64,000 nucleotides of DNA from Halobacteriovorax marinus (GTDB taxonomy: Bacteria; Bdellovibrionota; Bacteriovoracia; Bacteriovoracales; Bacteriovoracaceae), in contig MAAO01000002.1 in assembly GCA_002163155.1 (NCBI GenBank), forward strand, positions 496,001 to 560,000, given 5' to 3'. Below are positions 6,373 through 49,386 of this stretch, in pieces. The first letter of the stretch is position 1. Each line of letters starts with the position of its first letter. Below the pieces are notes generated by a model. The model was given only the letters and a program-made list of their open reading frames with translations. It ran no database searches and had not been told where the DNA came from. The position numbers and the translations under genes were made by a program.

Positions 6373-9300
6373 TTAGTTAACCGTGTAACTCACATCTGAT
6401 TCAGTGAACGTTGGACTATCACCACCACCATGAATGATTTCAATATCAATTAATGGATGGACAATACTTGTTACATTGAAAGTAAGTACATAACCTTGGC
6501 CACTCACTGTTAAGACAGGGGAGGCTACTGCTCCTGAAGCACTATTAACTGAAAGCACATGGGCTGAAATAGCATTATTGTGGTAGAAGCGACCCTCAAA
6601 GTGTCCACCACCACCGGCACCAGAAATATGAACTTTATAGATCACACTTTTCCAAGTTGATGCCGTAACACTTACGACTATATTTCCTGAATATGTTCCT
6701 ACTTTATTCCAAAGTTTATTAATCTTTACCGCACCACCATCATTAGTATTGTGAAGCTTTGTACTGGCGTCAGCTGTCTTAATATCTAGAGTCGCAGCAG
6801 GTGCATTACCTCCAATTCCAACTCTACCATTTGTATCAATTCGCATTGCTTCTGCAACATTTCCTGGAGCAGTAGTGGTTATTCCTGTACCAAAGGATAT
6901 TCCACCATCGTTACCGGTTCCATTGAATTGCATGTAACCCATCCAAGTTGAATCAATTTTTTCTTGAATCCTTGTACCTGCACTGTTCCAAACGGAACCT
7001 GCAGAAGTTCTGATTTGTCTGATATCTAGGAAGTTATTGTTTCCATTATGACTACTGAATCTTGCCATTTCGACTACGTTGTTTAGAGTAGTCCCTAAAC
7101 TAGGTGCTACTACTTCTAACTGTGCATCAGGGGTTGTTGTTCCTATTCCCACATTTCCATTGGTATTTATTATCATTTCAGGAGTACCACTTCCACTTTC
7201 ATTTACACCAAAACTGATAGGGTGGTTAGTATCAGTTATAATCTCAAGTCCAGCGGTTGGAGATGTGAAGTATCTCTGAGCACCTTCAGCTGATTGGATG
7301 ACAGATTCAACATTCGTAGTAGTAGACTTTATTCTACCTGCAGCGTTAGTTGCAGTAGCGTCGTGTACATGAAATAGACCGCTTGGTGAAGTTGTTCCAA
7401 TTGCGACTCTTCCACCATTTCTATTTAAAACTAGTGACTGTGCAACTGATTCAGCATTGTTGGTCGCTTCTATAAAAGAATATTGTTCAACTCCAGATTC
7501 CCAGCGCGCACCTAGAATCAATTTTTGATCTGTTTGTTGAATCTTTACTTTTGCTTCATCTGTTATAGCATTATCATCTCTTACATGGAGTCTGGTGTTG
7601 GCTTCTGGAGCAATAATTCCAACCCCTACATTACCAGAAGCATCAATATTAATTCCGTTCGTACCACCATTACCAACTAGTGTATTGGTCGCAAGATCTA
7701 GTTTTTGAGTTGCTGTATGACTACCGAGGTTATCAGCGGCACCGCCACCACTTCCTCCTGAAATTAAAAATCCATAGGCATTAGTAAATAGGGTTGAGTT
7801 GTATAAATTTATGGTAGAACCTGAAGACTGTCTGGTTGCAAATTCTAGATAATCAGAAGTCCCATTTAAATAAATGACAGCAGATATTTTAACATTAGGA
7901 TACATTCCTCCTGTTGTCACACCAGACGCGAGAGATGCTTTTACTCCTGAACCATTTTTTAAAATCCAGGCATAGGGATTATTCCAACCCGTTATCGCCG
8001 AATATAAAATATCCGCATGAACGTAGTAGTAACCAGCAGTCGTCGGTTGAAAGCGGTCATTGGTCATATCAAAAGCACTGGCAGTATCATATTCTTCAAT
8101 GTTGAAATTAATTTTTGTTGTCGTCGAAGTTGGAATGGCCTGACCCGAAGTCGCTGCCACACTAAATGAAACATTTGTATTTGAACTGAGTCCAATCCAG
8201 GTTGTTCCATCGTAGTACATCATCTTCTTAGTCGCAGTATTGTAATAAGTTTGCCCGGCTGTTCCTGGGCCAGGGTCAGCTGCGAGTTGTGGAATATTGA
8301 CTCCATTCGTTGAAGCAAAATCTAAATTGGCAACAGTCACAGTGTTCGCTGCGAGATCAGTTCCTGTTACTGATCCATCATTTATTTCATCACTTGTCAC
8401 AGCACTGGTTGCAATTTCTGTTGCAGTCACGGAATCTGTAGTAAGTGATCCACCACTACCGGCACCAATTTTCACAATAGATAAAAAATTTGCTGCAGAA
8501 GTTGCATGAAGAGTTCTTGCCACAGTATCACCGTTATAGCCGACAATTTTTACAACTTGGCCAGCTGTTAATCGTAAAACAGTTGATAAACTCTCTGTTA
8601 GTGTCGCGGAAGCCGCTCCTGCATAATTTCCATTTCGTATAACTTCACTTCCATCAACAAATAATGAAAGAAGAACTCTCTTACCATCTACTAATGTATT
8701 CACTCTAATTGTAGAAGAAATTTGATAGAGACCAGCTTCTGGAGCAGTCCATTCACCTGTACTTGAATTGTAAGCAGAGTTTGAATCTTCATCTACTACA
8801 TTAAATTTAATGTCTTCAAAAGTTGAAGCAGTTAAAGACTGTGAGTTGTTATTTGATGCTCTAAAGTATACTTCACTTCCTGCGCTACTACTTGTGGCTC
8901 CATTAAGTAAAGTGAATCCCATATAAGCGTAACCGGATCCAAGAATATCTCTTCCTGATGATCCACGTGTCACAGCAATTTTATCGCCACTACTTAAATT
9001 TAGCATGACTGAAAAAGATTCGTCTGGTGAGCAGGCCGCTGTACAACTTGAAAGATCGATATCGACAATTTCATTGATTGAGTATGAAGGGGAGTCTGGA
9101 TTGATGACATAATCAAAGAGGACTCTTGAACTTCCTGTGGCTATACTTTTTAAATGTACGTTTAAGAGATAAAGTCCCGCTTCAGGAGCCACGAACCAAC
9201 CCTTAGATGAATCAAAGATTCCATCAGCGTCACTTAATATTCTACCGTTTAATGTTCCAGTTTCTGAATAGCTTGATCCAATTCTTCGACTCGATAATCC

Positions 9301-43802: not shown

Positions 43803-44705
43803 TTATTTATGCTTTTTCTTTATAAATGAAGAGATTTCAACGACTAATTTTTGAATAAGATCTGAATTTTCTTTGAATTTTGAATAAGAAATTGAAATTG
43901 AGTGCTCACTTCTTTTGAGTGGTATTGTGGATTTAATATTTATGGCAACTAAGTTCTTTTTAGAGACGTCATAACTTGCAACAAGACTTGGCAAAAGAGC
44001 GATTCCTATACCGTTTATTGCTAAGGCCTTAGCTGATTCTAAGCTTGAAGTTTCGTAAACCTTTCTATTTTCAATAAGTGATTTCAGATTCTGCTTAAAT
44101 TCTGAGCTTAAATTTTGAATGGCCTGTGGCATATATATAATCGGAGCAATAGCTAAATCAGAGTAATCAGCAATTTCACTATTTGTAGTTGTGTAGAATT
44201 TAAAATGATCATTGATTGATGATTTAGAAATAATGTTCTTAACTTTTTTAGGATCAACAGTTAGAGCTAAATCATAAACACCATTTTCTAGTTCCGATAA
44301 AATAGTATGACTTCTATTTGTAGATAGTTGAATATTAAGATTTGGGTACTTTTTTGAAATGTGTTTAATAAATTTGGGCCAAAAGTAAATAGCAAGACTA
44401 TCGTATGTTCCTATTCTGACTGTCGCATTCATAGGATCGTTCTTATTTAAGAGTAGACCTTCAACTTCATCTAGCTTGTAAAAGAGTTCTACACAATATT
44501 CAAAAAGCAACTTTCCCTCTTCACTTAAAATGACCCCTTTAGGTGTTCTTAGAAAAAGTTTTATCTGTATGCTTTCTTCCAATACTTTAATTGATTTTGT
44601 TAGTGAAGGTTGTGTGATGAATAGGGTGCGCGAAGCCTTATTAAAAGAACCAGCTTTCGCAATTTCATAGAAGTAATGTAGTTTTTCCAAATGTTCTTTC
44701 AGCAT
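43803..44705 (-). CDS. LysR-family transcription regulator
   Basis: A 300-residue LysR protein. The N-terminal winged helix has KLHYFYEIAKAGSFNKASRT and LFITQPSLTKSIKVLEESI. The effector domain (about 90-290) is a periplasmic-binding fold (VRIGTYDSLAIYFWP ... NGIGIALLPSLVASYD). It is divergent from the five-gene redox operon starting at 44815, the usual arrangement for a LysR activator and its target. A T-N11-A dyad lies right before its start codon. The effector is unknown. Confidence 0.92.
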   Translation of the reverse strand: MLKEHLEKLHYFYEIAKAGSFNKASRTLFITQPSLTKSIKVLEESIQIKLFLRTPKGVILSEEGKLLFEYCVELFYKLDEVEGLLLNKNDPMNATVRIGTYDSLAIYFWPKFIKHISKKYPNLNIQLSTNRSHTILSELENGVYDLALTVDPKKVKNIISKSSINDHFKFYTTTNSEIADYSDLAIAPIIYMPQAIQNLSSEFKQNLKSLIENRKVYETSSLESAKALAINGIGIALLPSLVASYDVSKKNLVAINIKSTIPLKRSEHSISISYSKFKENSDLIQKLVVEISSFIKKKHK

Positions 44706-44720
44706 ATAGCCTGAAGCTAT
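44706..44720. promoter_or_regulatory. LysR-type operator candidate (T-N11-A)
   Basis: ATAGC-CTGAA-GCTAT is a perfect 5 bp inverted repeat with T-N11-A spacing, touching the lysR start codon. It would suit autoregulation of lysR and activation of the divergent operon. Confidence 0.55.
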
Positions 44721-44775
44721 AGCTCATATAGAAGAAAGTCAATTTATTTATAGCTACTATTCAATTAAATTAAAC

Positions 44776-44795
44776 AAGCAAAAATATATTTGCTT
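44776..44795. promoter_or_regulatory. Second dyad before the redox operon
   Basis: AAGCAAA (44776-44782) and TTTGCTT (44789-44795) form perfect 7 bp arms around AATATA, 19 bp before the ATG of the YHS gene. It may be an operator or a leader hairpin close to the ribosome site. Confidence 0.4.
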
Positions 44796-44814
44796 AAACG
44801 TTGAAGGAGTATCT

Positions 44815-45312
44815 ATGAAGTCTATTTTATTAACCCTAGTCATGTCCTTTTTGACTATTTCTCACACTCAAGCATTTGATCAATTGGATCGAAATGTCGC
44901 GGAATACAATTTAAGTGATCGTGGAGTTGGGCTTATCAATTATAAAAATGGAAAGGCCTATGATCCAGTTTCGTATTTTGTTGAAGAAGGTTCTAGCGCA
45001 CTGGTAGGGAGTGACGAGTTTTCTCTCGTCTACGAAGAAGTTGAATACCTATTTTCAAGTGCAGTGAATATGAAATCATTTTTAACAGATACGGCCAGGT
45101 ATGAACCAACATTTGGTGGATGGTGTGCAAGAGCTATGGTCGCGGGTCAAAAAGTTCAAATTAATACTGAGCTATTCACTGTAGTAGGTAGGAGAGTATT
45201 CTTCTTCGTAAATAATAGAGCAAAGAGATTCTTTGATAGAAATTTAGAGAAAAATATCTTACTAGCAGATAAGAACTGGAAAGAAATTTCTGGTGAAGCT
45301 CCTAGAATTTAA
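44815..45312 (+). CDS. Secreted YHS-domain protein
   Basis: A 165-residue protein with a signal peptide (LTLVMSFLTISHTQA). The core KAYDPVSYFVEEGSSALVGS, then YLFSSAVNMKSFLTDTARYEPTFGGWCARAM, is the YHS family as found in periplasmic proteins of copper or redox gene sets, with the cysteine of GGWCA conserved. Metal binding is plausible but not proven. First gene of the five-gene operon under the divergent LysR regulator. Its ribosome site is GAAGGAGTATCT. Confidence 0.85.
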   Translation: MKSILLTLVMSFLTISHTQAFDQLDRNVAEYNLSDRGVGLINYKNGKAYDPVSYFVEEGSSALVGSDEFSLVYEEVEYLFSSAVNMKSFLTDTARYEPTFGGWCARAMVAGQKVQINTELFTVVGRRVFFFVNNRAKRFFDRNLEKNILLADKNWKEISGEAPRI

Positions 45313-45336
45313 TTATTAGTCTTTCTTGGAGAATAT

Positions 45337-45981
45337 ATGAAAAATATCCTTTTTATTTTCTATATAATTTTCTTTATCTCTTGTGGTGATTACGTAGAGT
45401 TTAAAGAGAGTCCATTGCCGTTTCTCCAAGGAAGGTTTCCTCTCGAAGAGTTAACATTTGAAAATATAAATAATAAAGTTTTAAAAAATAATTGCCTCTC
45501 TTGTCATGGAGAATATGAGGATTTTGAAATTGTTAAATCAAAATCGAATGAAATAATTGAGGCCATGACGAGTGGAAGGATGCCTAAGAATGCTCCTGCT
45601 TTAAGTCGTGAACTGCAAGGTTTATTTAAAGCATGGGTCGAAAAAGGAGCTCCCTTTGGAGATAACCCTCCTCCATCTGGCGGGAGTAATGAGTTAAGTG
45701 CAGAGTGGAGATCAATTTCTAAAAAGGTCATTTTTCCAAAGTGCTTAAGATGTCATAACCCAAACGGTCAGGCGAGCTTCTTAGACCTTAGTACGAGGCA
45801 GAAATTTTTTGAACAAAGAGATTATCTATTAAATGGGTTCTCTGATGTAGAAAATAGTTACCTGTTTGAAGTCTTAAATGATGATGAAGAACCAATGCCT
45901 CCTGCTTCGTCAGGAATTGAAAGATTAACAACTTTTGAAAAAGAAATTTTAAAAGAATGGATTGAGAAGGGTCTTCCTTAA
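45337..45981 (+). CDS. Dihaem cytochrome c lipoprotein
   Basis: A 214-residue protein with a lipoprotein signal ending FFISCGD. Two haem c sites are visible, CLSCHG and CLRCHN, each with a downstream methionine-containing loop (SGRMPKNAPAL and EEPMPPASSG) that would give the sixth ligand. The two halves look like an internal duplication, each ending in a similar helix (FKAWVEKGAPFG and LKEWIEKGLP). It would carry electrons at the outer face of a membrane. It follows the YHS gene by 24 nt and precedes the YceI gene. Confidence 0.88.
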   Translation: MKNILFIFYIIFFISCGDYVEFKESPLPFLQGRFPLEELTFENINNKVLKNNCLSCHGEYEDFEIVKSKSNEIIEAMTSGRMPKNAPALSRELQGLFKAWVEKGAPFGDNPPPSGGSNELSAEWRSISKKVIFPKCLRCHNPNGQASFLDLSTRQKFFEQRDYLLNGFSDVENSYLFEVLNDDEEPMPPASSGIERLTTFEKEILKEWIEKGLP

Positions 45982-45991
45982 AGGATTTGAA

Positions 45992-46522
45992 ATGAAAAAA
46001 ATATTACTAATGTTACTTATTATAAATATCAATGTAGCAAATGCCTCTAAAGTGATTTCTTCAAAGGTTAAGTTTCAAGCAACGGGGAAACCAGCTTTTC
46101 TTAAAATTAATGGAGAAGGAAAATTAGGGGTAACAAAACTTAAGATTGTAGGAAACAAGTTAATAGGTTCAATAGAAGTTGATTTAAATGAACTTGATTC
46201 TGGAATAGAGCTCCGAGATAACCATTTAAAAGAGAATTATCTTGAAACTAAGAAATATCCAAAAGCAATTCTGTATTTAGATCATGCTGATCTTTTAAAA
46301 GGATCTTCGGAGAATACTCTCGAAGCTGTATTGGAGCTACATGGAGTTAAGAAAACTATTGAATTTATCTCTACCATTAAAATTAATGAGAAGGTTTTAA
46401 CTGTCGAGTCTGAGTTTTCTATAAAGCTAAGTGATTTTAAAATTGCAATTCCTTCCTTTCAAGGAATAACAGTGAGTAAGATTGTTAAGTTAAATATCAC
46501 AGCAAAAATTGAGCTTGATTAA
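45992..46522 (+). CDS. Periplasmic YceI-family protein
   Basis: A 176-residue lipocalin-like protein with a signal peptide (LLMLLIININVANA). Conserved YceI features are KVKFQATGKPAFLKINGEG, LDSGIELRDNHLKENYLE, KYPKAILY and LHGVKKTIEF. The family binds polyprenyl or quinone-like lipids in the periplasm and often sits with haem or cytochrome b561 proteins. The ATG at 45992 is preceded by AAGGATTTGA; the longer frame from a TTG at 45962 overlaps the cytochrome gene. Its stop overlaps the next start by one base. Confidence 0.9.
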   Translation: MKKILLMLLIININVANASKVISSKVKFQATGKPAFLKINGEGKLGVTKLKIVGNKLIGSIEVDLNELDSGIELRDNHLKENYLETKKYPKAILYLDHADLLKGSSENTLEAVLELHGVKKTIEFISTIKINEKVLTVESEFSIKLSDFKIAIPSFQGITVSKIVKLNITAKIELD

Positions 46523-47631
46523 TGAAGACCTTAATTACGATATTTTTATTAGTACTTAGCGCTAATACTCTTTCTTATGTTGAGAATGTAACAAAGGGAT
46601 ATGCCAATTGTATGTCATGCCATATTTCCCCAAACGGGGGAGGTATCCTTACTGATTATGGAAGAGTCTTGTCTTCGGCAATGATGAGTACATGGAAAGT
46701 TAGGCCTGGGTTTGAAAATCCTTATTACGGACTATTTAAAAATACGCAGAGTTTAAAACTTGGAGGACAGCTCAGAACTATTCAAGTTCACGCTGAGAAT
46801 AATCAGGTCAAAATTGCCAAGAAATTTGTTATGCAAAATAACTTGGAGTTTGCCTACAAAATAAAAAACGTAAATATCGTAGGGACTATTGGCAGGCAAG
46901 AAGGACCCAAGACCACAAAGAGAAAAGGAGAGTTTCTAAGTGAGAGGCATTACCTATTATGGGAAACATCTGAGGATACAAGAGTTCGTATTGGGAAATT
47001 TAAGCAGCACTTTGGAATAAATACTCCTGATCACACAAGATTTGTTAAACAATCCTTGGGGTTTGGATCAAATTCTGAAACTTATAATTTTGAAGTTTCT
47101 AAGTACTATGACTGGGGAGAAATCAATATTTCTCAGAGTGTAGGTGATTTCTTTGCTCATAAAGCGGACGATTTACAAAAGAGAAACTTAGTCTTTAACT
47201 TTACTCATTATGGCAATGGATCCTCGCGCTTTGGGACTAGTCTTCTTTTGGGTCGAGATTCTCTTAATAAGAGAAGAGTGTACGGAGTTAATGCTGTTTC
47301 CGGTCTTAGTAAAAATACATATTTTCTAAGTGAATTAAATTACGAAAGAAAGATTGAATTAAATAGTTCTGACATTTCTACTGATGCACTGTTTGGGGTT
47401 CATACATTGGGCTACAAGGCATTTAAAGGGGGGACAGGTTACTTTGTCTTTGAACATTCTCAAAATGATCTATCAAAGAATGAGTCTTTGATTTTATCTC
47501 CAGGAGTTGGGGTACAACTCTTACCAATTCCTCACGTAGAGGTTCAATTAGAGTATCAAAGAAGAAGTTATCAGGTCGCAAAGAATAATCCTGAACACCG
47601 ATCTTTTATGATCTTTCACTTATATCATTAA
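46522..47631 (+). CDS. Outer-membrane beta-barrel protein with N-terminal haem c site
   Basis: A 369-residue protein. After a signal peptide (ITIFLLVLSANTLS) comes YANCMSCHISPNGGGILTDYGR with one CxxCH haem site (residues about 30-35). The rest (about 70-369) is a chain of amphipathic beta strands with aromatic ends (RVRIGKFKQHFGI, YGVNAVSGLSKNTYFLSEL) that ends FMIFHLYH, consistent with an outer-membrane barrel. A haem directly fused to a barrel could bring electrons to or through the outer membrane; this is inference. Its ATG overlaps the yceI stop codon by one base. Confidence 0.75.
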   Translation: MKTLITIFLLVLSANTLSYVENVTKGYANCMSCHISPNGGGILTDYGRVLSSAMMSTWKVRPGFENPYYGLFKNTQSLKLGGQLRTIQVHAENNQVKIAKKFVMQNNLEFAYKIKNVNIVGTIGRQEGPKTTKRKGEFLSERHYLLWETSEDTRVRIGKFKQHFGINTPDHTRFVKQSLGFGSNSETYNFEVSKYYDWGEINISQSVGDFFAHKADDLQKRNLVFNFTHYGNGSSRFGTSLLLGRDSLNKRRVYGVNAVSGLSKNTYFLSELNYERKIELNSSDISTDALFGVHTLGYKAFKGGTGYFVFEHSQNDLSKNESLILSPGVGVQLLPIPHVEVQLEYQRRSYQVAKNNPEHRSFMIFHLYH

Positions 47632-47643
47632 TGAGGAGTTTTT

Positions 47644-48276
47644 ATGCAAGAGGAAATAGTAAAAACAAATTTAGATAGAGCAAGTCAGTTTTATTCAATG
47701 ATGAATGAAAGAAGAAGTATAAGAAGTTTTTCAGACAAAGATATTCCTTTGGATGTCTTAAAGGAATGTATTAAAGTCGCAGGTACTGCCCCTAGTGGGG
47801 CAAATCGACAACCATGGTATTTTGCTTTAGTTGTTGATCCAATCCTTAAAGCTAAAATTAGAGAAGCAGCAGAGAAAGAAGAATTAGACTTTTATCAAAG
47901 AAAAGCTTCGGATGATTTTCTAAGAGACCTTTTACCTTTTGGAACTTCTTGGAAGAAAGCACACTTAACTGAGGCCTGTGCATTAATCGTTATATTTTCA
48001 AAGAGTTTTGATTTTATAGGTGAGGAGAAACTAAAATGTTACTATCCCAAAGAATGCGTGGGAATTGCAACGGGAATGCTCATCACTTCTTTACATAGAC
48101 TCGGTATTGGAACTTTAACTCATACTCCAAGTCCCATGAGCTTTCTAAATAATGTATTAGATAGGCCTAGTCATGAAAAAGCTTTCATGATTCTTGCTGT
48201 TGGACATAAATCTTCATCTTATATTCCACCAAAGATTACAAGAAAACCTTTTCATCAGATTTGTGATGTCTATTGA
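47644..48276 (+). CDS. Nitroreductase-fold flavoprotein, iodotyrosine deiodinase-like
   Basis: A 210-residue FMN enzyme: RRSIRSFSDKDIPLDVL, then GTAPSGANRQPWYFALVVDP, then IREAAEKEELDFYQRKA match the reductive dehalogenase branch (IYD-like) of the nitroreductase family, including the conserved EExxFY segment in the substrate lid. It ends VGHKSSSYIPPKITRK. It lacks a signal peptide and is thus cytoplasmic, unlike the four genes before it. Last gene of the operon, with a 7 bp tail overlap with the convergent hydrolase gene. Confidence 0.87.
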   Translation: MQEEIVKTNLDRASQFYSMMNERRSIRSFSDKDIPLDVLKECIKVAGTAPSGANRQPWYFALVVDPILKAKIREAAEKEELDFYQRKASDDFLRDLLPFGTSWKKAHLTEACALIVIFSKSFDFIGEEKLKCYYPKECVGIATGMLITSLHRLGIGTLTHTPSPMSFLNNVLDRPSHEKAFMILAVGHKSSSYIPPKITRKPFHQICDVY

Positions 48277-49175
48277 TTATTAATAAAGTTTAAAATATCT
48301 CTTCTTACGAGTTTAGCAGTTGATTCCTCTTCATTATCAATCTCGTGAAGTGTATTCTTATAGAGTAATGTTTTAAAGTGACGTGCATTTTTTTTAATTG
48401 CTTTTAAAGTCTTATTTGAATTTACGTAGGTGTCAATTCTAGGATCAGATAAGAGTACAAATCCTTTAACTGCTTTAGAGATTTTCCAGCTTCTTCTCGC
48501 TTTATAGGCCTGCATTTGAAGATTAATTGAAAATTTCAATACGTGAGCAGGGCTCGCTGGGTAAATCGCGTCTTCATGGGGATCATTGACTCCAATAAAC
48601 CTATTTGTGGTTAAAGTCCTTATTGTAATTTCATCAATTGGCCAATTAAAGAGTCCTTCGCCTACTAAGTAGCGTGGAGAAATTCCTGGTGCAATTAAAG
48701 TAATAGATTTTACTGTCTTGCCTTTATCTAGATAAGCTTTTTTATAGGCAGCGAGTCCTCCGGTGGACCATCCAATTATATGATACTTATGATTTGCGCC
48801 ATCATTTCTCTTATATTTTGAAATAACTAAATCACCAAGCCTATTTATATTTTGAATTTTCGTGTAATTCATAGATCCAAGGGATCCGCCTTGGCCCATA
48901 TAATCAAAAGCTATAACTCTATATCCATCTTTAATGAGAACTTCAAAAAGAGGATCATGGTTTAACATTGAATCGGCCAGTCCTTGGTAGTAGAGTATAT
49001 TTCCCTTGAAGGGGACATCAGGGTTTGCCTTCAAAAATCCTGTACGAATCGAAATCTTCTTTCCTTTATTTAAAAAATCTATTCTATCCATTTGCCAATT
49101 CAAATAACTACCGGCAATTGAGTTTACACTCATACATAGTGCAAATAGAAATATTGAAGTTTTAATAAACTGCAT
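48270..49175 (-). CDS. Secreted alpha/beta hydrolase
   Basis: A 301-residue serine hydrolase with a signal peptide (TSIFLFALCMSVNSIAG). The nucleophile lies in GWSTGGLAAY, the acid probably in LLSDPRIDTYV and the histidine in KNTLHEIDNEE; the oxyanion region is ILYYQGLADSM. Monoglyceride lipase/lysophospholipase-like order. I start at the ATG at 49175, preceded by TTAGGAGATCCT; the longer frame from 49277 adds 34 residues before the signal peptide. A related secreted hydrolase is at 52896. Confidence 0.83.
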   Translation of the reverse strand: MQFIKTSIFLFALCMSVNSIAGSYLNWQMDRIDFLNKGKKISIRTGFLKANPDVPFKGNILYYQGLADSMLNHDPLFEVLIKDGYRVIAFDYMGQGGSLGSMNYTKIQNINRLGDLVISKYKRNDGANHKYHIIGWSTGGLAAYKKAYLDKGKTVKSITLIAPGISPRYLVGEGLFNWPIDEITIRTLTTNRFIGVNDPHEDAIYPASPAHVLKFSINLQMQAYKARRSWKISKAVKGFVLLSDPRIDTYVNSNKTLKAIKKNARHFKTLLYKNTLHEIDNEEESTAKLVRRDILNFINNQ

Positions 49176-49386
49176 AGGATCTCCTAAATTTGTTTTTCCT
49201 TTATTAAGCAAGACATATGCCATTTCTAAATAATGATTATGGTTATTTAGAGTTTTTAAATATGAATATTTGTTCACATTTTTATGAGGTTGTCTAAATA
49301 TTGAACAACATAGATGTATAAGCTATTAATATTAGTGTCTTTCATTTGGACTGACTTTTGCTCTTTAGGGGGTGGGCGAGGTACTA

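Follow-up and report, generated by a model that had tools for sequence, protein, structure and literature searches.

A Cyc2-like haem-barrel protein partnered by a YceI lipocalin across the Bdellovibrionota: a candidate outer-membrane electron-transfer module in Halobacteriovorax marinus

To date, fused cytochrome-porins have been represented chiefly by the iron oxidase Cyc2, an Fe(II)-oxidizing protein whose barrel has been modelled on OprO/OprP and which is defined by the motif AXPXFAR[Q/K][T/Y] upstream of its CxxCH haem motif (PMC8406198). In a separate line of work, YceI lipocalins were found to bind ubiquinone/isoprenoid quinones and, together with cytochrome b561, to shield the envelope against lipid peroxyl radicals (PMC9113575). 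Here, we describe a locus of Halobacteriovorax marinus (contig MAAO01000002.1, positions 496,001 to 560,000; this whole 64,000-nt stretch is called the window below) in which both kinds of protein are encoded in a single operon, alongside an exported YHS protein, a dihaem c-type cytochrome lipoprotein, and an iodotyrosine deiodinase (IYD)-type flavoprotein, and facing a LysR-type regulator gene. The cytochrome lipoprotein, the YceI protein, and the haem-bearing predicted barrel (hereafter haem-barrel) constitute a conserved core, with IYD, YHS, and LysR as separable regulon partners.

Searches recovered the haem-barrel from 76 of the family's 129 genomes; with a profile, it was recovered phylum-wide from 235 of 369 genomes, representing 110 of 182 genera. 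We read the neighborhoods of 81 haem-barrel loci from 46 genera, picked from the stronger matches rather than as a random sample. A YceI gene was located ≤3 kb from the haem-barrel in 70 of these loci (38 genera), and ≤100 nt from it in 61, while another c-type haem protein was encoded within 3 kb in 70 loci (40 genera), and both partners were found at this distance in 63 loci (34 of the 46 genera). By comparison, an estimated ~1% of randomly placed loci would have a YceI gene at ≤3 kb, given 8 YceI genes in the near-complete 4.55-Mb host genome. The most common core order was cytochrome, YceI, haem-barrel, with genes overlapping or nearly so. A first-pass annotation of this DNA, made from the letters alone, had proposed looking for co-occurrence of all five families: linkage of cytochrome, YceI, and haem-barrel was recovered phylum-wide, but the full five-gene set is rare, with six loci (window included) from five genera of one family. 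It had also named scattered genes, or a barrel protein devoid of haem, as findings that would speak against a unit; neither was encountered, with the genes recurring together and CxxCH conserved without exception. In a tree of the haem-barrel, the six five-gene loci and most other YHS-bearing operons fall within one fully supported clade of 18.

Several variations on the core were observed. The genome under study encodes a second, strongly diverged haem-barrel operon (L076, 7043-10299, contig C9), in which a LysR gene faces genes for a PF03640 protein, YceI, a haem-barrel, and a monohaem lipoprotein. In nine other loci (L042, L058, L062, L077, L118, L133, L144, L146, and L147), a ~600-aa gene and a gene for a small exported protein are found divergently upstream of the core; the former encodes a TPR plus winged-helix regulator in L118, i.e., an alternative core regulator. 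A cytochrome b562-like small protein precedes YceI and haem-barrel in L077 and L140 (Pfam match weak in L140), and in L142 the haem-barrel gene is convergent with a gene (7208-8890) whose 560-aa product carries 21 CxxCH motifs and is a possible multihaem partner.

Each haem-barrel contains one CxxCH motif, which is CMSCH at residue 30 in the window protein. This motif was present in all 42 haem-barrels first examined and was invariant in two alignments (n = 36 and n = 39), in line with the initial description of a single-haem barrel protein. The family consensus for the haem region, [YF]xE...GYxNCxxCHxSPxGGGxLTxYGRxLS, was compared to Cyc2 homologs taken from plasmid records by a motif query derived from the published consensus; these read xPxFARQTGxxCxxCHxxFPELTxYGRxFK, and most of their loci are adjoined by a c-type cytochrome gene. 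After removal of signal peptides, hhalign matched the two haem domains over 32 columns (score 45.8, E 3e-10, probability 97%), compared to 8-12 columns around the motif and scores of 22-28 for four control sets of unrelated CxxCH domains. The strict AXPXFAR[Q/K][T/Y] motif is absent from the window haem-barrel, which reads SYVENVTKGYANCMSCH, and its relatives commonly read FPEMVRHGYxNC, where P and R alone are kept at the positions matching the Cyc2 motif. The protein was therefore not filed as Cyc2, and is best described, from its sequence, as a member of a putative unnamed Cyc2-like family of fused cytochrome-porins. The haem-barrel fusion had initially been singled out as the most unusual part of the locus; it is not without precedent, as Cyc2 is a fusion already described (PMC8406198).

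Family scans yielded no Pfam or NCBIfam match for the window haem-barrel. Among its relatives, Porin_O_P, the fold put forward for the 16-strand, OprP-like barrel of Cyc2, was matched by 10 of 39 (best 7e-7) and OMP_b-brl by 4 of 39; neither model matched the window protein. The Pfam models returned no matches on Cyc2 homologs either, so that Porin_O_P could not be used as a shared control. A search of solved structures with the haem-barrel gave weak matches alone, to OmpX/Ail and cytochrome c6, and period-2 autocorrelation was only weakly raised (a value reached by 86 of 2000 shuffles). No match was obtained when plasmids and viral contigs were searched with it, and a DNA scan of genome contigs recovered one haem-barrel relative, L039, which belongs to a Bdellovibrionaceae MAG. 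From the sequence we infer a barrel fold, an outer-membrane location, and haem loading.

Comparison of LysR-divergent promoters uncovered a composite operator comprising a 15-bp dyad (ATARC-N5-GYTAT), exactly 18 bp, and then TCAATTTATTTATAG; in the window, it abuts the LysR start. A matrix built from seven LysR-adjacent sites, the window site among them, scored the window operator at 35.1 bits and the next best site of the 64-kb window at 12.3, and a whole-genome pattern scan found one perfect match, the window site itself. Upstream of an unlinked YHS-cytochrome-YceI-barrel operon in genus g13, five held-out sites scored 16.5, 14.7, 14.7, 11.3, and 10.8, corresponding to empirical p values of 0.0008-0.008 against 1,283 other upstream regions, although these loci are related and not independent; a sixth held-out site (L043) scored 7.2 (p 0.06). 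Among the top three "controls" (16.3, 16.1, and 15.1) are one YHS promoter seen from its reverse side and the leading gene of a further YHS operon. By pattern scan, six g13 genomes, of which three had no part in training, also carry the operator before IYD, while the reversed pattern had one match in 12 genomes. As this operator is shared by the YHS-cytochrome-YceI-barrel operon and by the LysR-IYD pair lying apart from it, all of these most likely belong to one regulon whether or not they are linked, and LysR would be expected to bind the window operator. LysR control, as originally proposed for this operon, is thus supported by a conserved operator at unlinked regulon members. A different shared promoter element (CTAATCAATAC-like) was seen in the intergenic regions of L052, L053, and L154, where the composite operator is missing.

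The IYD protein is closest, among solved structures, to 5ko7 (E 3e-57) and animal iodotyrosine deiodinases (E ~1e-41). Residues E80, Y84, K105, T159, and T161 are invariant in 30 IYD homologs; we take the first three to be the IYD substrate lid, and the two threonines to be the flavin mononucleotide loop. The window protein displays no signal peptide and is therefore predicted to be cytoplasmic, and we know of no role for IYD in bacteria. Across 30 IYD loci, a LysR gene adjoined IYD in 25, mostly as a divergent pair, and further partners were YHS (14), cytochrome (11), and haem-barrel (6). YHS, cytochrome, and IYD were found together without YceI and haem-barrel in three genomes (L153-L155), and YHS with cytochrome alone in others. 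Overall, the window operon is assembled from modules: the core, a LysR-IYD pair, and a YHS-cytochrome pair. IYD-labelled genes near the haem-barrel in L143 and L149 were rejected, as the stricter IYD search did not return these genomes. A secreted Spondin_N-domain protein adjoins IYD in L166 (6048-6713, Pfam-confirmed), with similar proteins recognized by eye in L040, L154, and L164, and is apparently a further regulon member.

The YHS protein was assigned through NF041384 (92.4 bits, cut-off 70), with the Pfam YHS model alone below its cut-off. The window protein reads GWC at a GxC motif in which C104 is invariant. This family has selenoprotein members with a selenocysteine (Sec) motif GxU (PMC13188914); Cys104 takes the Sec position of the selenoprotein form, which points to a redox thiol.

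The layout of the locus is given in Table 1. Open reading frames (ORFs) and family assignments confirmed the arrangement first noted, i.e., five genes packed with gaps of 24 nt or less and facing a LysR gene: successive spacings from YHS to cytochrome, YceI, haem-barrel, and IYD are 24, 10, -1, and 12 nt, and the LysR-YHS intergenic gap is 109 nt. Downstream of IYD, the operon unit is closed by a convergent alpha/beta hydrolase gene (48270-49277, minus strand), which shares 7 nt with the 3' end of IYD. The YceI start was taken as the ATG in Table 1, while the ORF tool extends this gene to 45962. The YceI protein (PF04264 E 4e-16, 60 bits, cut-off 23.7) has a Sec-type N-terminus as judged by eye. 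In the dihaem lipoprotein, which resembles PSCyt1-type cytochromes in family scans, a lipobox (FISC) is followed by haem motifs at residues 53 (CLSCH) and 136 (CLRCH). A cytochrome c assembly gene was found in the same genome.

Table 1 Features of the LysR-facing operon, in window positions
Feature	Position	Strand	Remarks
LysR-type regulator	43803..44705	-	divergent from operon; PF00126/PF03466
Composite operator	44706..44753	+	dyad ATAGCCTGAAGCTAT + 18 bp + TCAATTTATTTATAG
Exported YHS (seleno)protein-family member	44815..45312	+	NF041384; Cys104 in GxC
Dihaem c-type cytochrome lipoprotein	45337..45981	+	CLSCH, CLRCH; PSCyt1-like
YceI-family periplasmic lipocalin, predicted signal peptide	45992..46522	+	ATG start; PF04264
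Predicted fused monohaem cytochrome/outer-membrane barrel, 369 aa	46522..47631	+	CMSCH; Cyc2-like haem domain
Predicted cytoplasmic IYD-type flavoprotein	47644..48276	+	nitroreductase superfamily; lid residues kept

Taken together, we tentatively favor a reading in which the core is a Cyc2-type outer-membrane electron-transfer module with a protective role, switched on by LysR along with YHS and IYD. The barrel would be embedded in the outer membrane, its one c-haem domain placed at the mouth facing the periplasm. There it could swap electrons either with a small redox-active substrate that had entered the pore or with a YceI-borne lipid or quinone, and the dihaem lipoprotein would pass electrons to or from the respiratory chain. 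Such a module would not yield energy, and would instead clear the envelope of reactive metal, lipid, or halogen species. By acting on the operator, LysR would co-induce the core, the YHS thiol protein, and the cytoplasmic IYD flavoprotein, which may reduce halogenated (or otherwise oxidized) tyrosine or phenol products. Given the quinone role of YceI, the Cyc2-like barrel, and the envelope cytochrome, a detoxifying outer-membrane electron path seems the simplest reading; we infer its electron path, substrate, and protective role from this combination. The suggestion in the first-pass annotation that these proteins carry electrons gains support from the Cyc2-like haem domain and from the adjacent cytochrome in most loci. 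As for the substrate, metal ions would fit the branch found in copper loci, and oxidized lipids or halogenated phenolics would fit the window branch.

Several results weigh against this proposal. An AlphaFold model of the haem-barrel, made from only two sequences, reached a pLDDT (predicted local distance difference test) of 28 and gave no structure, the count of amphipathic strands was no higher than in shuffled columns, and the barrel regions of the window family and of Cyc2 yielded no convincing alignment. On the haem-barrel tree, the five-gene loci require two changes within the clade of 18. In five-gene operons of the L051-L053 branch, no composite operator was found, so that the operator of this branch has changed or differs. 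Finally, the copper link belongs to other branches than that of the window.

This last point also bears on metal handling, which we consider an unlikely but serious explanation: the haem-barrel would be a Cyc2-like Cu(I) or Fe(II) oxidase, its haem oxidizing metal that enters the pore and electrons flowing through the dihaem lipoprotein to a terminal oxidase, so that toxic Cu(I) would be lowered; YHS would bind metal. One haem-barrel branch is indeed located in copper loci, with a CsoR-type repressor, a multicopper oxidase, and a TolC-like protein, and in several genera the core lies beside CsoR and multicopper oxidase genes and directly upstream of Cu P-type ATPases. These ATPases combine heavy-metal and YHS domains, and start 7-9 nt after the haem-barrel in four loci. 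A gene the size of a Cu P-type ATPase follows the core in L114, L115, L132, L135, and L137 (Pfam-confirmed in L115 and L132), and an ankyrin-type protein is encoded between cytochrome and YceI in L131, L132, L135, and L137, with a cupredoxin domain in L131. Oxidation of Fe(II) by Cyc2 (PMC8406198) also favors a metal substrate. However, no copper ATPase, CsoR, or multicopper oxidase gene was found beside the window core, whose branch is instead tied to LysR-IYD, and a metal role is not obvious for either YceI or IYD.

It is improbable that the operon is a halogenated-aromatic pathway, in which LysR would sense a halophenol or halotyrosine, the barrel would admit it, IYD would dehalogenate it reductively, and the cytochromes would dispose of or supply electrons. 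The invariant lid residues of IYD, the widespread LysR-IYD pair, and the single operator common to this pair and the haem-barrel operon all point in that direction; nevertheless, IYD is flavin-dependent and predicted to be cytoplasmic, and is not known to be connected to cytochromes in the periplasm; a haem-barrel adjoins it in only 6 of the 30 IYD loci; and no ring-cleavage genes are found nearby. A dedicated halophenol catabolic operon was rejected as the principal interpretation. Slightly less probable still is energy-yielding extracellular electron transfer, with Cyc2-type uptake (or delivery) feeding respiration: it would be consistent with the Cyc2-like haem domain and with the 21-haem protein beside the haem-barrel of one genome (L142), but the regulon context resembles detoxification, the window operon includes no multihaem conduit, and the Cyc2 motif is missing. 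Lastly, chance neighbors or a vertically inherited gene order without functional unity, for which the occurrence of IYD, YHS, and LysR away from the haem-barrel could be cited, is very improbable and strongly disfavored by a core that stays linked in 34 of 46 genera when sequence identity is low, by the second core copy in the same genome, and by the operator common to unlinked operons.

The view that the gene set is an undescribed pathway still stands, as no description was found in the literature searched, which was largely without subscription papers. Fused cytochrome-porins are known as a kind, whereas this family, its YceI partnership, and the LysR-IYD regulon appear new. A phylum-wide, multi-copy haem-barrel family without a Pfam entry would be a candidate route by which electrons reach or cross the outer membrane where metal respiration is not known, and YceI proteins, whose role is debated, would gain a defined redox partner. 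The shared operator also links bacterial IYD to envelope redox proteins, and makes the physiological signal of IYD testable. It is possible, if doubtful, that the core represents a third type of electron conduit at the outer membrane, next to Mtr/Pcc and Cyc2, partnered by YceI, distributed phylum-wide (including Bdellovibrionaceae), and serving detoxification rather than respiration, with the lipocalin as a mobile redox carrier; if so, copper, lipid radicals, and halogenated phenols would be its targets.

How the locus relates to known systems can be summarized as follows. Its IYD protein aligns at 39-44% identity with iodotyrosine deiodinases, including the bacterial 5ko7, and keeps the E/Y/K lid and TxTP loop, but sits in an operon with envelope cytochromes. 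Mtr/Pcc conduits likewise combine an outer-membrane barrel with c-haem proteins; however, they place a separate multihaem cytochrome in a 26-strand porin, whereas the window protein would have one haem fused to a small barrel and its partner is dihaem, and an Mtr-type conduit was rejected on these grounds. Cyc2, as found in Acidithiobacillus and Mariprofundus, is closer: one protein joins a single CxxCH domain at its N-terminus to an outer-membrane barrel, the haem-domain signature is shared up to LTxYGR, and a c-type cytochrome gene lies alongside; a minority of the haem-barrel's relatives match Porin_O_P. Unlike Cyc2, which mostly reaches 400 aa or more, the haem-barrel is ~370 aa long, is devoid of the AXPXFAR[Q/K][T/Y] and PXL motifs, and is usually linked to YceI outside any iron-oxidizer context. 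In this YceI linkage it recalls the BcnA-LcoA-PsrA system (PMC9113575), where a YceI lipocalin is also genetically tied to a haem electron carrier, although that carrier is an inner-membrane cytochrome b561, and the window operon has a c-type lipoprotein and a haem-barrel in its place.

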